NCBI RefSeq assembly: GCF_900240285.1
Contig: NZ_OESS01000001.1
Span: forward strand, 930,001 to 994,000
Source of the DNA: Halobacillus sp. Marseille-P3879
Lineage (GTDB): Bacteria > Bacillota > Bacilli > Bacillales > Halobacillaceae
Length of the DNA stretch: 64,000 nucleotides
Direction: 5' to 3'
The notes beneath the pieces were generated by a model. That model was not told the origin of the DNA and did not search any database. It was given only the letters and a program-made list of their open reading frames with translations. Shown piece by piece: positions 7,894 to 18,291 of the stretch. Made by a program: the position numbers and the translations under genes. Within the stretch, counting starts at the first letter, position 1. Each line of letters starts with the position of its first letter.

Positions 7894-7915
7894 GTACTCA
7901 ATTAAATAAAACTAA

Positions 7916-8015
7916 TGGTTTTCTAGGGTTCCGTAATTTCATTAAATTAGTCTGGTCCGAGAGAAAACACACAGTTTTATTCTGTGACACGGAAGGACAA
8001 AAGCCTGGGAGATAC
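7916..8015 (+). promoter_or_regulatory. Guanidine-I (ykkC) riboswitch aptamer
   Basis: The conserved blocks of the ykkC class appear in order: CTAGGGTTCCG (7923-7933), CTGGTCCGAGAG (7952-7963), then ACACGGAAGGACAAAAGCCTGGGAGAT in pattern (about 7986-8013). It lies directly upstream of two SMR exporters, the classic genetic context. Ligand binding should stabilise the aptamer's 3' part and stop the following terminator from forming. Confidence 0.92.
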
Positions 8016-13242: not shown

Positions 13243-15585
13243 GTGGTTTTTCTGACCAAAGAAATTCGGAAAGAGCAGGAGTATTTGGATAAGGTAATGA
13301 GAACCATTGGCGGGCAAATTAACGAGATGGAAGCAGATGCGGCGAAGCGGAAAGAAGAAGTGATCCACATCCGTAAGCACTTCTGGGATGACCTTAAAGT
13401 TAATATGGATACGTTTGACGATTATCTTGAAACGATTATTGGAATGAGGCAGCAGGCACAGGATCTGTCTGTAAGTCAAAGTACACACAGACATGCCTAT
13501 AACAGGCTGGCGAGACTGAAACGAATAGAGAAATCTCCTTACTTCGGCCGGATTGATTTCGTTGAAGAGGGAAATGAAGTTACAGAGCAGATTCATATCG
13601 GCGTTTCGACAGTGACTGATGAAACAGAAGATAACATCCTTATTTACGATTGGAGAGCTCCGATTTCGAGCATTTATTATGATTATCCTCCCGGCCCGGC
13701 CGAATACACTATTCCTGATGGAGTCATCCGCGGGGAACTTGAGAAAAAGTGGCAGTATAACATCAGAAATGGCGTGATCGAATCGATGTTCGACACGAGC
13801 CTTACCATTGGCGATGAGATTCTGCAGGAAGTGCTCGGTAAAGGGTCCAATAAACATATGCAAAGTATAGTGGCCACGATTCAAAGAGAACAAAATAAGA
13901 TCATTCGAAACATAAGTGGAAGACTATTAATTGTACAGGGAGCTGCGGGAAGCGGGAAAACATCAGCTGCCCTTCAGCGAATCGCTTATTTCCTCTATCG
14001 ATTTCGAGAAAATTTAAAGGCCGATCAAATCATTTTATTCACACCTAATACGATGTTCAGCAACTATGTTTCTCACGTTTTACCTGAGCTTGGAGAAGAG
14101 AACATGCAGCAGGAAACTTTTCAAGACTATCTGGAATACCGGCTGGATCGCTCATTTGAAGTTGAAGATCCTTATGATCAACTGGAATATCTGCTCGAAG
14201 CTGCGGATGACCCTCTTTATCGTACAAGAAAAGCTAGTATTCAATTTAAAGCCTCATCCAGCTTTTTTGAAGGGATTAAAAGGTATCGAGAAACCTTAGA
14301 GTCAACAGGCATGATTTTTAAAGGGATCAAGTTTCGCGGTCAGTCTATCGTTTCCTCTAAACAAATCAAAGACTTTTTTTATAGTAACCATACCTCTCTC
14401 CGCTTTCATAATCGAATTGACAAGTTGAAAGAATGGTTAATGAGTGAGGTCGACAAAACGGAAAAAGCTGAAATGAAGAAGGCCTGGGTACAGGAAGAAA
14501 TCGAGCTGCTCAGCAAAGATGAACTGCAGAAGGTATACAACCAATTAGAGAATTCTAATGAAGATTCCTTTGATTTTTATAAAAGAGAGAGAAAGATGCT
14601 TGCCCGTATGGTCGTGCGCAGGAGACTGCGCCCTTTACGTAAAAAAATAGAATCCCTTGAATTTATAAATATTAAAAGATTATACAAACAGCTATTTGAA
14701 GATTCTCTCAGCCTCAACCTCTGGGAAGAGCAAGATATTCCAGGCGAGTGGAAAGAAATCTGCTTTTTGACAAAAGACATGCTGGACGAAGGGAAGCTGT
14801 ATCACGAAGATGCCACTCCATACTTGCTGCTGAAGGAACTCATCCAGGGTTTTCAATCCAACACTTCTATCAGATATGTACTTATAGATGAAGCGCAGGA
14901 TTATTCTGTATTCCAATTCGAGTTTATCAAAAGGCTGTTTCCCAGGGCCAGGATGACAGTCCTCGGTGACTTTAACCAGGCCATATTCGCCCACTCTGAT
15001 CATTTTGCAGACTTTGATTCGCTGACCAGCTTATACGGATCTGATGAAACAGAGCGCATCACATTAGAGCGCAGTTACAGATCCACAAGGCAGATTATTG
15101 AGTTTACCCGTGAACTTGTTCCAGAAGGTGAACAAATCAAGGCTTTTGACCGGGAGGGAGAGAAGCCGACGCTTACAAGGCTGCCTGACCATGATGAATT
15201 ACACGAAGAAATCACTTCTAAAGTAGAATACTTGCAAAACAACGGTTTTCAAACGATTGCGATCATTTGTAAATCAGCTGCTGAAAGTTCATCGGCTTAT
15301 CATGGTCTTCGTACCATAGACAATCTTAAACTCGTTAAGAAAAACACCGATGAGTATGCACAAGGGGTTATTGTTATTCCAGCCTACCTGGCGAAAGGGA
15401 TTGAGTTTGATGCTGTCGTGATTTATAACGCCTCCAGCCAGGTATATGGAGAAGAGAGTCTTCGCCGGTTGTTTTATACAGCGTGCACTAGAGCTATGCA
15501 TCACCTGCATATTTATAGTGTTGGCGAACCGAACCCATTTTTAAAAAACGTTCCTTCAGGAAGACTGCAAATGTCCCGTGAGTAA
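13243..15585 (+). CDS. helD: RNA polymerase recycling motor HelD
   Basis: A 780-aa UvrD/Rep-like superfamily 1 protein that uses ATP to release stalled RNA polymerase from DNA. An N-terminal coiled coil (about residues 1-100) is the arm that enters the polymerase channel; Walker A GAAGSGKT is near residue 233 and the Walker B/Q-motif DEAQD near 549, with RSYRSTRQI and late helicase motifs (YTACTRAMHHL) following. Length matches B. subtilis HelD (774 aa). The start is uncertain: the in-frame GTG at 13243 overlaps the AAGGAG site (13238-13243), while a CTG at 13252 has normal 8-nt spacing. Confidence 0.93.
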   Translation: MVFLTKEIRKEQEYLDKVMRTIGGQINEMEADAAKRKEEVIHIRKHFWDDLKVNMDTFDDYLETIIGMRQQAQDLSVSQSTHRHAYNRLARLKRIEKSPYFGRIDFVEEGNEVTEQIHIGVSTVTDETEDNILIYDWRAPISSIYYDYPPGPAEYTIPDGVIRGELEKKWQYNIRNGVIESMFDTSLTIGDEILQEVLGKGSNKHMQSIVATIQREQNKIIRNISGRLLIVQGAAGSGKTSAALQRIAYFLYRFRENLKADQIILFTPNTMFSNYVSHVLPELGEENMQQETFQDYLEYRLDRSFEVEDPYDQLEYLLEAADDPLYRTRKASIQFKASSSFFEGIKRYRETLESTGMIFKGIKFRGQSIVSSKQIKDFFYSNHTSLRFHNRIDKLKEWLMSEVDKTEKAEMKKAWVQEEIELLSKDELQKVYNQLENSNEDSFDFYKRERKMLARMVVRRRLRPLRKKIESLEFINIKRLYKQLFEDSLSLNLWEEQDIPGEWKEICFLTKDMLDEGKLYHEDATPYLLLKELIQGFQSNTSIRYVLIDEAQDYSVFQFEFIKRLFPRARMTVLGDFNQAIFAHSDHFADFDSLTSLYGSDETERITLERSYRSTRQIIEFTRELVPEGEQIKAFDREGEKPTLTRLPDHDELHEEITSKVEYLQNNGFQTIAIICKSAAESSSAYHGLRTIDNLKLVKKNTDEYAQGVIVIPAYLAKGIEFDAVVIYNASSQVYGEESLRRLFYTACTRAMHHLHIYSVGEPNPFLKNVPSGRLQMSRE

Positions 15586-15804: not shown

Positions 15805-15842
15805 AAATCTTTGTAAAATAAATGTAGATGAGAGGTGACACA

Positions 15843-16118
15843 ATGTCTCTTAATGAAGCTTTCAAAGCATTATCGGATCCAACTCGAAGACAAATCCTAA
15901 CTTTGTTAAAGGAAGACGAACTAACCGCAGGGGAAATCGCTTCTCACTTTAATATGCAAAAACCCAGCGTTTCCCATCATTTAAAACTATTAAAACATGC
16001 TTCATTAATTGATGATGAAAGAAGAGGCCAGCATATTTATTATTCTTTAAATATGACCGTTTTTCATGAATTAATGAGCTGGTATTTCACGTTTATTGAA
16101 AAGGAGGAGAAGAAATGA
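15843..16118 (+). CDS. ArsR-family autorepressor (SdpR-like)
   Basis: A 91-aa winged-helix repressor; the recognition region reads TAGEIASHFNMQKPSVSHHLKLLK and the wing DDERRGQHIYYSLN. No metal-binding Cys/His cluster is visible, as in SdpR-type members that are controlled by a membrane partner. The following gene encodes an SdpI-family protein, overlapping by 4 nt, which in B. subtilis sequesters SdpR at the membrane when it detects the SdpC toxin. Start at 15843 (AGAGGTGACACA precedes ATG); an ATG at 15828 lacks a site. Confidence 0.85.
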   Translation: MSLNEAFKALSDPTRRQILTLLKEDELTAGEIASHFNMQKPSVSHHLKLLKHASLIDDERRGQHIYYSLNMTVFHELMSWYFTFIEKEEKK

Positions 16119-16747
16119 GGAAGTATGTATTCAGTTTAATTCTCATCGCAGTAAGCCTGGGGATAAGTGCGGCTGTGCTCCCGTACCTGCCAGACCAGGT
16201 AGCTATGCATTGGAATATAAATGGGGAAGCTGATCAGTTTTGGAACAAATCCTACGCAGTTTTCTTTGCACCGCTTTTAATGATGGCAATGCTTGGTTTA
16301 TTTATTCTGCTGCCTAAGATCGATCCTAAAAAAGAAAACTATAAAAAGTTCTCAGGCAGCTATACGATTGTTGTGAATCTGCTCATCGTATTCTTTTTTC
16401 TGCTTCATATCGTAACAATGGGGTATAACTTAGGTTTTGCTATTGATATTTCTTTAGTCATTCTCATAGCAGTCGGGTGTCTGTTTATCATCCTGGGGAA
16501 CTACCTGCCTCGAATTAAACATAATTATTTCATGGGGATCCGTACCCCCTGGACATTGGCGAATGAAAAAACTTGGAGAAAAACACATCAATTAGGTGGC
16601 AAAGTGTTTGTGACGGCAGGAGTATTAATAATTGCAGTTTCTTTTTTACCTGGACTTTTTAAATTTATCAGCTTAATGATTGTAATGGTCGTTATGCTCT
16701 TAGTTTTAACAGTTTCCTCTTATATATTTTTTAATAGATATCAATAA
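16115..16747 (+). CDS. SdpI-family membrane protein
   Basis: A 210-aa protein with six predicted membrane helices. Family hallmarks are the N-terminal PDQVAMHWNINGEADQFWNK and the central IKHNYFMGIRTPWTLANE with KTWRKTHQLGGK. In B. subtilis SdpI gives immunity to the SdpC toxin and acts as a sensor for SdpR. No sdpABC genes occur in this window, so this may be an orphan immunity or stress-sensing pair. Strong AAGGAGGAGAAG site and ATGA overlap with the repressor gene. Confidence 0.87.
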   Translation: MRKYVFSLILIAVSLGISAAVLPYLPDQVAMHWNINGEADQFWNKSYAVFFAPLLMMAMLGLFILLPKIDPKKENYKKFSGSYTIVVNLLIVFFFLLHIVTMGYNLGFAIDISLVILIAVGCLFIILGNYLPRIKHNYFMGIRTPWTLANEKTWRKTHQLGGKVFVTAGVLIIAVSFLPGLFKFISLMIVMVVMLLVLTVSSYIFFNRYQ

Positions 16748-16784: not shown

Positions 16785-16813
16785 TTGAAAAAAACATCGA
16801 TTTGCAGTATGAT
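16785..16813 (+). promoter_or_regulatory. Sigma-A promoter of the hisS leader
   Basis: TTGAAA (16785-16790), 17-bp spacer, TATGAT (16808-16813). The predicted start near 16820 places the leader-peptide ribosome binding site close to the transcript 5' end. Confidence 0.75.
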
Positions 16814-16841
16814 ACGTTACAAGAAATTCGAGGTGAACAAC

Positions 16842-16889
16842 ATGGCATATAATATTTTCTGTTCACAACTGCATCATCATATGAATTAG
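16842..16889 (+). CDS. His-rich leader peptide (15 aa)
   Basis: ATG at 16842 sits 6 nt after a GAGGTG site (16830-16835) and opens MAYNIFCSQLHHHMN, ending at TAG 16887-16889. Three consecutive His codons (CAT at 16872, 16875, 16878) lie just before the stop, ahead of alternative hairpins and hisS. That is the signature of a transcription-attenuation leader peptide: scarcity of charged His-tRNA would stall the ribosome on these codons. The binding site partly pairs with 16860-16866 (GTGAACA/TGTTCAC), which may limit initiation. Translation is inferred. Confidence 0.72.
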   Translation: MAYNIFCSQLHHHMN

Positions 16890-16984
16890 CCTTGCTATTC
16901 GATTGAATAATCGTAAATAGGAAGGCTGTTTCTCATGAACCGCATTTGATTAAGTTCTACACTTAATTCAAGTGCGGTTTTTTT
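16888..16984 (+). promoter_or_regulatory. Ribosome-mediated His attenuator (alternative RNA hairpins)
   Basis: Hairpin 1:2 combines AGCCTT/AAGGCT (16888-16893/16922-16927), CTATT/AATAG (16895-16899/16916-16920) and CGATT/AATCG (16900-16904/16909-16913). Terminator 3:4 pairs 16938-16955 with 16961-16979 (AACCGCATTTGATTAAGT against ACTTAATTCAAGTGCGGTT), then seven Ts (16978-16984). Alternative 2:3 pairs TAATC..AAAT (16908-16912, 16915-16918) with ATTTGATTA (16944-16952), which breaks both. A ribosome stalled on the His codons would cover the left arm of 1:2 and favour 2:3, letting transcription reach hisS. Confidence 0.72.
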
Positions 16985-17010
16985 ATATTTAAATAACCGG
17001 AGGGATAACG

Positions 17011-18291
17011 ATGAAGAAAATGAATTATCAAAATGTAAAAGGCACCCAGGATTACCTGGGAAATGAAGAAGCAGTAAGAAGAAATATAAAAAGAACATTA
17101 GAAGATGTCTTTATCCAATATGGGTGTAAACCATTAGAAACGCCGATTTTAAATTATACAGAACTACTAGCTTCTAAGTATGGAGGAGGGGCTGAGATAT
17201 TAGAAGAAATGTACACGCTGACTGATCGAGGAAAAAGGAATTTAGCTTTGCGGTACGATCTCACTATTCCGTTCGCTAAAGTTGCCGCAATGAACCCGGC
17301 TTTAAGAATGCCATTTAAGAGATACGAAATAGGCAAAGTGTTTAGAGATGGACCAATCAAAGAAGGGAGGTATCGAGAATTCACCCAATGTGACGTGGAT
17401 ATAGCAGGGGTGGATTCGCAGGCAGCCGAGGCTGAATTAATGACCATGGCTCTGGACGCGTTTAATAAACTGAATATAAGTGTGACCATTCAATATAACA
17501 ATCGAAAGTTAATAGTCGGCATGCTTGAAGAATTCGGGCTGGAAGAGGAGATGACTAGTAAAGTAATCTTAGTCTTTGACAAGCTTGAAAAGGTTGGGGT
17601 CAATGCTGTCCTGACTGAACTGGCCTCACTGGGGATATCCAATTCATTAATTCAGCAGATAAAAGCATTTTTGACGGATAAAGGGAACACAACGGTCAGC
17701 TATTTTGAAGCCTTAGCTGAACGAAGTGAGCTTGTTAAACAAGGATTAAACGAGGTCCAAGAGCTCGAATCTTATTTAGACACACTCGGCGTGAAAGCAC
17801 AGTGTCAATTTAACCCTTTTTTAGCAAGAGGATTAGAGATTTATACGGGAACCATTTATGAGATATTTTTAGCTGACAGATCTATCAATTCCAGCATTGG
17901 CAGTGGAGGAAGGTATGATAACGTAATAGGCGGTCTTATGGAGACCAATGAAAAATATCCCACTGTCGGTATATCATTTGGTTTAGATGTCATTTATGCG
18001 GCTTTAAGTAAAACGATAAAACAGCAGGAGATCACGGATGTAGATTACTATATAATCCCGCTCAATACCCTTAACGAATCATTACTAGCAGCAAAGTATT
18101 TTAGAAACCAAGGATTTAAAGTCGAGCTGGAGTTAAGTAATAAGAAATTAGGTAAAGCTCTTGATAAAGCAAATAAAGAAGGGATCCCTAACGTAGTTAT
18201 CATAGGAGAGGAGGAGGTGCGAAAACATCAACTTAGAGTTAAAAATATGGATTCCGGCGAAGAAAGCATGAAATCCTTTGATTTTATATAA
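17011..18291 (+). CDS. hisS: Histidine--tRNA ligase (second, HisS2-like type)
   Basis: A 426-aa class II synthetase charging tRNA-His. Motif 2 region is KRYEIGKVFRDGP...GRYREFTQCDVDIAG, the histidine-binding motif is ARGLEIYTGTIYEIF, motif 3 is GGRYDNVIGG..PTVGISFGLD, and a C-terminal anticodon-binding domain follows. Wording such as LALRYDLTIPFAKVAAMNPA resembles the additional HisRS of the B. cereus group rather than the usual Firmicute HisS, which lies beside aspS. Here it stands alone behind a His-codon leader. GGAGG is 6 nt before the ATG. It is likely an inducible paralogue; the main hisS would be elsewhere (inference). Confidence 0.92.
   Translation: MKKMNYQNVKGTQDYLGNEEAVRRNIKRTLEDVFIQYGCKPLETPILNYTELLASKYGGGAEILEEMYTLTDRGKRNLALRYDLTIPFAKVAAMNPALRMPFKRYEIGKVFRDGPIKEGRYREFTQCDVDIAGVDSQAAEAELMTMALDAFNKLNISVTIQYNNRKLIVGMLEEFGLEEEMTSKVILVFDKLEKVGVNAVLTELASLGISNSLIQQIKAFLTDKGNTTVSYFEALAERSELVKQGLNEVQELESYLDTLGVKAQCQFNPFLARGLEIYTGTIYEIFLADRSINSSIGSGGRYDNVIGGLMETNEKYPTVGISFGLDVIYAALSKTIKQQEITDVDYYIIPLNTLNESLLAAKYFRNQGFKVELELSNKKLGKALDKANKEGIPNVVIIGEEEVRKHQLRVKNMDSGEESMKSFDFI

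Follow-up and report, generated by a model that had tools for sequence, protein, structure and literature searches.

A His-codon leader upstream of a histidyl-tRNA synthetase paralogue in Halobacillus and its relatives: a probable peptide attenuator whose RNA switch seems to depart from the textbook scheme

The window, i.e. the whole stretch of DNA analysed here, comprises 64,000 nt of Halobacillus sp. Marseille-P3879 (contig NZ_OESS01000001.1, positions 930,001 to 994,000), and all features described lie on its forward strand. The ORF at 17011–18291 encodes a paralogue of histidyl-tRNA synthetase (HisRS) and is referred to as hisS*. Its leader starts with a sigma-A-type promoter at 16785–16813, in which TTGAAA (16785–16790) and TATGAT (16808–16813) are separated by a 17-nt spacer. 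A Shine-Dalgarno sequence (GAGGTGA, 16830–16836) is followed by a frame of 15 codons (16842–16889), which reads MAYNIFCSQLHHHMN*, carries three His codons (CAT CAT CAT, 16872–16880) and ends in TAG. This stop codon forms the first bases of stem 1:2, which spans 16887–16928 according to folding. Region 1, the 5' arm of the stem (16887–16904), begins 6 nt past the last His codon, while region 2, the 3' arm (16909–16928), holds the nearly invariant AUAGGAAGRCUA, with AGGAAGG at 16919–16925. An AUG is located 9 nt downstream of AGGAAGG (16935–16937), and an intrinsic terminator with seven T, the hairpin 3:4 of an earlier note on this DNA, extends from about 16937 to 16984.

The elements listed in that note, namely promoter, Shine-Dalgarno sequence, His-codon frame, 1:2 hairpin and terminator, can be read directly from the DNA. 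The leader of 191 nt folds with z = −5.5 and none of 200 shuffles was equally stable. By itself, the promoter match is not significant (2 hits in the window versus 2.1 expected, both strands). The terminator was missed by a pattern scan of the window, yet it is evident from folding and pair counts. Directly adjoining the leader on the upstream side (15828–16747) are the genes of an SdpR-family autorepressor (NF033789) and then of a 210-aa membrane protein, which is SdpI-like by eye and gave no NCBIfam hit. The window also contains the gene of the RNA polymerase recycling motor HelD (13243–15585; NF041464, 1097 bits) and a Guanidine-I riboswitch (7912–8013; RF00442, 91.4 bits).

Compared to the NCBIfam model NF009085, hisS* reaches 627.7 bits (cut-off 540). 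Identity to the canonical hisS of the same genome is 32% and 25% in two stretches. The solved structures closest by sequence score are 6nhi (219 bits), 4g84 (188 bits), which is a cytoplasmic HisRS, and 3net (174 bits), with 1qe0 (113 bits) and 1kmm (97 bits) scoring lower. The canonical hisS of the genome has a T-box upstream. A canonical hisS was found in all 34 hisS* carriers examined, and it is preceded by a T-box in 12 of 12 carriers of the window type. Inspection by eye revealed no His leader before the hisZ-like gene of the window genome. Within the family of this genome hisS* has a scattered occurrence, with matches at E 1e-120 or better in 8 of 44 genomes. Oceanobacillus sp. J11TS1 has hisS* twice (L008 and L011, about 12.7 kb apart), one copy with the full leader and the other with the terminator tail only.

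For the comparison with relatives, 86 distinct loci were used: the best 80 of 332 relatives from a contig scan, five carriers from whole-genome searches and the window (L085 and L086 are the same contigs as L005 and L077). A His leader was defined as an ATG frame of 8–24 codons with a Shine-Dalgarno-like tetramer and two or more His codons in a row, located within 480 nt upstream of hisS*. Such a leader was found at 85 of the 86 loci, whereas shuffling the letters of these upstream sequences produced one in only 2 of 430 cases. The earlier note had postulated a His-codon leader and intrinsic terminator before this paralogue, and the arrangement is thus conserved; Shine-Dalgarno sequence, ATG and His run are kept at the same 85 loci. 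The sole exception is L011, the second copy in its genome, which by eye retains only the terminator tail. A previous count of 78 of 80 relatives had missed L011 and L029; the leader of L029 was later located about 300 nt further upstream.

All 85 leaders retain a run of at least two His codons, with three in 76 leaders, two in seven, four in one and five in one. The run is preceded by 8 to 15 codons, and the stop codon is TAG in 72 leaders, TAA in 12 and TGA in one. The His run is preceded directly by Leu or Phe in 65 of 84 leaders and, one residue further upstream, by Gln in 66 of 84, while the remainder of the peptide is variable. A GAGGTG-like hexamer is present in 72 of 82 relatives. Relatives also have a similarly placed promoter-like site: the best site matches at least 9 of 12 positions in 55% of 82 relatives (letter shuffles: 22%), and its −10 end lies 55–69 nt upstream of the His run in 63 of 82. 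At locus L100 the His leader is well kept and the hisS* frame behind it is interrupted by stops, i.e. the leader outlives the gene. In the window, L005 and L006, the leader Shine-Dalgarno sequence is able to pair with bases just 5' of the His run (GUGAACA/UGUUCAC; window 16830–16865), a pairing that is weak in others. A general pairing between the Shine-Dalgarno sequence and a UCAC ahead of the His run (extension 1.68 versus 1.34 shuffled, 8 of 5000) is not claimed, because both parts occur in only 54 of 82 leaders and relatedness was uncontrolled.

Alignment A1 comprises 82 of the 86 loci; L011 is excluded for having no leader, and L028, L029 and L044 for varying at the anchor. In A1, stem 1:2 and the terminator are together 93.2% paired with double changes in 22 of 34 pairs, and none of 500 shuffles was as good, a count that is not a probability because the aligned leaders are related. 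Across 81 distinct leaders, 99.0% of cells are paired in the lower part of stem 1:2 and 84.0% in the upper part. The terminator has 18 pairs, of which 14 show double changes, and 92.2% of its cells are paired. Slid versions of the pairing of both helices yielded 36–48%. The stop codon covaries with its partner in stem 1:2 (UAGYCUU/AAGRCUA, UAACCUU/AAGGUUA, AAGUCUU/AAGACUU), and an additional exchange in this stem was seen by eye in L028 and L029. The compensatory changes in 1:2 and 3:4 and the retained His run are what the earlier note had suggested looking for in relatives. Mean folding energies are −16.8 kcal/mol for 1:2 and −20.3 kcal/mol for the terminator. Between the last His codon and the first stem base, 75 of 82 leaders have a gap of 6 nt (five have 3 nt, one has 9 nt and one 0 nt). 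In L071, L077, L078 and L084 the stop codon is shifted upstream, yet by eye the distance from His run to stem is still 6 nt. Conservation at the level of sequence covers the leader frame and its His run, stem 1:2, the nearly constant gap between run and stem, and the terminator. A further hairpin, 2' (AUAG-GAAGR-CUAU), was rejected, since the shuffles are 86.0% paired, as is the alignment.

The earlier note had also proposed an antiterminator 2:3 that excludes both 1:2 and 3:4. The window sequence does allow this pairing (TAATC..AAAT with ATTTGATTA), but the relatives do not bear it out. In these, 72.2% of cells are paired, a level that 97 of 500 column shuffles reach (shuffled mean 71.5%), and the covariation score of 0.053 compared to 0.055 (286 of 500 as high) reveals no covariation. 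Three of the nine pairs are broken in 61, 36 and 40 of 81 rows. Region 2+3 alone folds with a mean of −3.8 kcal/mol (mean z = +0.46 versus shuffles). With no covariation and with folding no better than that of shuffles, 2:3 was dropped as an antiterminator. None of the other partners of the terminator arms within the window-type leader was accepted in this role. Region 2 has strong complementarity to the terminator 3' arm (mean −3.4 kcal/mol, t = −12), which was not taken as an antiterminator because the 3' arm is made last and AAUCG is, by eye, absent from the L059 type. Hence, an antiterminator was not found in the window's own leader type.

The position of the ribosome relative to the stem also differs from the original proposal. 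A 30S toeprint is located 16 nt downstream of the start-codon A (PMC9226507); therefore, a ribosome with the first His codon (His1) in the A site would end near 16883–16886, short of the stem start at 16887. Once moved on to the third His codon (His3), the ribosome would touch the first stem bases, and on arrival at the stop codon it would cover approximately the first twelve. According to masked folding, region 2 takes on average 12.8 kcal/mol to open without a ribosome, 12.2 at His1, 8.2 at His3 and 3.6 at the stop codon. Base by base, only region 2 clearly changes in the window type: AGGAAGG is mostly paired with the ribosome at His and about half open with the ribosome on the stop codon. 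Ribosomes were placed by distance from the stem in the window type and by the HHHKQR layout in f20 (see below), so that leaders with another layout are slightly off. We infer from this modelled register that the earlier picture, in which a ribosome stalled on the His codons covers the left arm of 1:2, has to be reversed: a ribosome waiting at His should leave 1:2 intact, and only the ribosome at the stop codon would mask it.

Covariance model R1, which represents the window-type leader, was run on 398 genomes of the class under strict filtering, and no more than nine candidates were scored per genome. Five strong matches were obtained, every one before hisS* (decayed in L100), along with two weak, chance-like ones. 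No second credible match was found in the window genome. The matches L096, L097, L102 and L103 were discarded as reverse-strand or weak, with no hisS* behind them. The hisS* family itself was detected in 33 of the 398 genomes at E 1e-100 or better, 18 of these in group f38, 10 in group f20 and five elsewhere; f20 and f38 may represent Paenibacillus and Brevibacillus, respectively. R1 had no match in f38 and f20 genomes, and ten loci of the f38 and f20 types gave no Rfam match, including RF00514. The hisS* genes of both groups have other His-codon leaders, e.g. MTGLNMFLQQHHHT (f38) and MNLINSISIIQNQLHHHKQR (f20).

At least three adjacent His codons are present in all 18 f38 leaders. The f20 set consists of 64 loci (63 from f20 and L133 from f35); no leader was obtained from the available sequence of L155 and L170. 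Of the remaining 62 leaders, 45 have at least three adjacent His codons and 17 have fewer, mostly with Tyr codons instead (QLHYYHKQR etc.), three of them with one His; His sensing is therefore less strict in f20. In L126, L130, L149 and L185, for example, Tyr codons take the place of part of the His run (HYYH, YYH, HHYY, YYHH). These Tyr codons are one base from His codons and may reflect a drift towards Tyr sensing. HVHQH replaces HHH in L101 / L125, where the number of His is kept and adjacency is lost. The residues ahead of the run recur as well, with QL-HHH frequent in f20 and LQQ- or LQL-HHH in f38. In f20, 55 of 60 leaders have a gap of 5 nt between His run and stem 1:2 (8 nt in two, 11 nt in two, 2 nt in one). 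For f38, where the gap was counted up to the base that follows the stop codon, 16 of 18 leaders have 6 nt; L119 and L120, both of which have a fourth His, have 3 nt.

For f20, alignment A2 contains 61 leaders (L165 is left out since the terminator pattern failed). Four helices can be drawn, each mutually exclusive with the next, and in 56 distinct leaders the paired cells amount to 93.6% for 1:2, 93.2% for 2:3, 95.8% for 3:4 and 92.9% for the terminator 4:5. Helix 1:2 is above all shuffles in both paired cells and covariation score. Covariation is modest for the others, because the f20 RNA hardly varies: 3:4 and 4:5 each show one double change (7 of 500 and 15 of 500 shuffles, respectively), and 2:3 none of note (73 of 500).

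In the switch test, the ribosome footprint is masked and the cost of freeing the terminator 5' arm is computed, with shuffled downstream sequence as control. The f38 leaders (n = 18) yielded 7.2 kcal/mol without a ribosome, 12.4 at His1 and 5.5 at the stop codon. The difference of His1 minus stop is +6.9 kcal/mol and exceeds 1 in 17 of 18 leaders (shuffled: −0.1, 20 of 108). The corresponding values for f20 (n = 60, L169 also left out) are 7.7, 7.2 and 3.3 kcal/mol, with a difference of +3.9 kcal/mol that exceeds 1 in 56 of 60 (shuffled: +0.3, 45 of 180). With footprint edges at A+8, A+11 and A+14, the differences exceed 1 in 17, 18 and 18 of 18 f38 leaders and in 48, 56 and 55 of 60 f20 leaders. 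For the window type (n = 82) the values are 2.8, 2.6 and 2.8 kcal/mol. The difference of −0.18 kcal/mol exceeds 1 in 9 of 82 (shuffled: +0.17, 32 of 164) and in 9–12 of 82 under other footprints, i.e. no switch was seen within this leader type. Among the E. coli controls, the thr attenuator was recognised (0.0 without a ribosome and at the stop codon, 6.6–7.8 at Thr codons 6–11, 3.8 at codon 13 and 0.3–0.8 at codons 15–16). The trp attenuator was weakly recognised (0.1 without a ribosome, 0.4 at the first Trp codon and 1.9 at the second). The his attenuator was missed (1.7 without a ribosome, 0.9–2.1 at His codons), so a negative result in this test is not proof.

For f38 and f20 the model predicts that 1:2 is closed and the antiterminator forms while the ribosome waits at His. 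With the ribosome on the stop codon, 1:2 is predicted to be broken, region 2 to take region 3 and the terminator to become freer. By the same calculation a ribosome-free f20 leader would be ON, whereas the E. coli thr leader would be OFF (0.0 without a ribosome, compared to 7.7 for f20 and 7.2 for f38).

We consider it rather probable that the leader in the window is a peptide-leader transcription attenuator with a stop-masked register, through which scarce charged tRNA-His raises hisS* transcription. With scarce charged tRNA-His, the ribosome would wait at the first His codon, just short of 1:2, and the stem would stay closed. With an ample supply, the ribosome would finish, sit on the stop codon inside the stem and mask region 1. 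In the two unrelated leader types, which precede orthologous genes, the waiting ribosome would favour the antiterminator and the ribosome at the stop codon would let the terminator form. The same sign, i.e. readthrough on His shortage, is assumed for the window leader by analogy with f20 and f38. This reading is kept for the window type because gene, codons and relatives point there. Counted against it is that RNA polymerase is faster than ribosomes in B. subtilis (PMC9226507), which would make the timing of an attenuator hard.

For the hisS* genes of Bacilli as a whole, chances are about even that they are under stop-masked attenuators. Segment 1 starts about 6 nt past the His codons, with the stop codon inside it or next to it, and 1:2 would therefore be broken by the finishing ribosome, not by the stalled one. 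The f20 leader would alternate between 1:2 with the antiterminator 3:4 and 2:3 with the terminator 4:5, an odd number of segments that would keep the sense of the response. The peptide sensor and its gap may have outlived a replacement of the RNA switch, as three unalike RNAs are now behind the sensor.

Other explanations have to be weighed against a stop-masked attenuator. In a textbook attenuator the stalled ribosome would open 1:2, region 2 would pair with region 3 and the terminator would be prevented. The complementarity of 2:3 is present in the window, and at one offset region 2 is weakly more complementary to region 3 than shuffled letters are (mean −1.0 kcal/mol; 41% of 82 lie below −1). 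Yet 2:3 does not covary, region 2+3 contributes −3.8 kcal/mol compared to −20.3 for the terminator, and a ribosome at His1 should fall short of the stem, all of which makes this reading unlikely. About equally improbable is an opposite sign, according to which reading the leader to its stop exposes AGGAAGG, a ribosome or 30S subunit binds there (AUN 9 nt on) and covers the terminator 5' arm, and readthrough follows; His shortage would then shut hisS* off. AGGAAGG is indeed the element that changes exposure between states, and the triplet 9 nt past it is AUG, GUG, UUG, AUU, AUA or AUC in 79 of 82 relatives (ATG 38, ATT 27, ATA 8, GTG 3, TTG 2, ATC 1, other 3). However, AUU, AUA or AUC account for 36 of the 82, no conserved frame was seen behind the triplet by eye, and 1:2 pairing alone could fix AGGAAGG. 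An opposite sign would also reverse the one predicted for the f20 and f38 leaders.

The preference for Gln and Leu or Phe ahead of the His run, including QL-HHH in f20 and LQQ- or LQL-HHH in f38, would suit an arrest peptide, in which the nascent chain (often SQL-HHH) stalls the ribosome on a drug or metabolite rather than on uncharged tRNA-His. We regard this as quite improbable, since the rest of the peptide is variable, f20 leaders have QF-YYH, LYYHH or QLHYYH, L101 has HVHQH, and the regulated gene is a HisRS. The least credible option, which we practically discount, is a T-box or protein-bound leader with an incidental short frame. T-boxes are usual for aminoacyl-tRNA synthetases of Firmicutes (PMC2965389), and the canonical hisS here has one. 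No Rfam family reached its threshold on the hisS* leader of the window, neither the T-box (RF00230) nor the proteobacterial His_leader (RF00514), and the best match at E up to 10 was RF04312 with 23.1 bits (threshold 59). The T-box bulge motif GGTGGNACC was likewise not matched at the leader, and it is absent within 450 nt in 80 relatives. The short frame, moreover, is kept at 85 of 86 loci. Taken together, the attenuation proposal of the earlier note holds for the conserved His leader and terminator, whereas its 2:3 switch and the masking of 1:2 by a stalled ribosome find no support.

A His leader peptide was predicted before hisS* and hisZ in bacilli, and the T-box on hisS was noted (Naville and Gautheret 2010, PMC2965389). 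The prediction shares with the window a Bacillus hisS paralogue, a short frame with a His run, a terminator and a T-box on the canonical hisS. It differs in that a hisZ leader is described for other bacilli, while the hisZ of the window genome lacks a His leader. The accessible text of that study contains no stem-codon register or antiterminator test, both of which are addressed here. Assigned by gene and layout, the window leader is probably a real His-peptide attenuator of this predicted family, of a kind termed "stop-masked": it lies upstream of a HisRS paralogue distinct from the canonical hisS, with the His-codon frame before the terminator. The E. coli his, thr and trp attenuators have in common with it a run of cognate codons, a stem, a terminator and expected induction by starvation. 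In E. coli, the stalled ribosome covers segment 1, since this segment and the control codons overlap, whereas here segment 1 starts about 6 nt past the codons. Of the classical features, the codon run in a predicted short frame is present; overlap of segment 1 and an exclusive 2:3 were not found.

His attenuators were also predicted for the his operons of the B. cereus group and other Firmicutes (Ashniev et al. 2022, PMC9413887). Like the hisS* leaders, these have three to five His codons directly upstream of structures, but the genes are different. The vmlR leader of B. subtilis (PMC9226507) likewise combines a short frame, several stems and a terminator in Bacillus; there, a drug-stalled ribosome prevents the anti-antiterminator, which is the classical polarity, and the accessible text mentions no His run. 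A study in an RNase J mutant (PMC10234816) deals with a 5' UTR of histidyl-tRNA synthetase and, as far as its accessible text goes, has no bearing on hisS*. The literature searched, which covers few subscription journals, yielded no further published account of the hisS* leader. Thus, the His-leader family is already known as a published prediction (2010), while the register, the missing 2:3 switch and both other leader types are additions made by computation.

A cell of this kind would read charged tRNA-His in two ways, by a T-box on the canonical hisS and, for the spare copy, by translation of the His leader. Should the stop-masked register be true, it represents a second way of wiring a peptide attenuator. 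An untranslated leader would then show the opposite phenotype (ON rather than OFF in f20), and three unalike RNAs under one sensor would be available for studying the evolution of switches.
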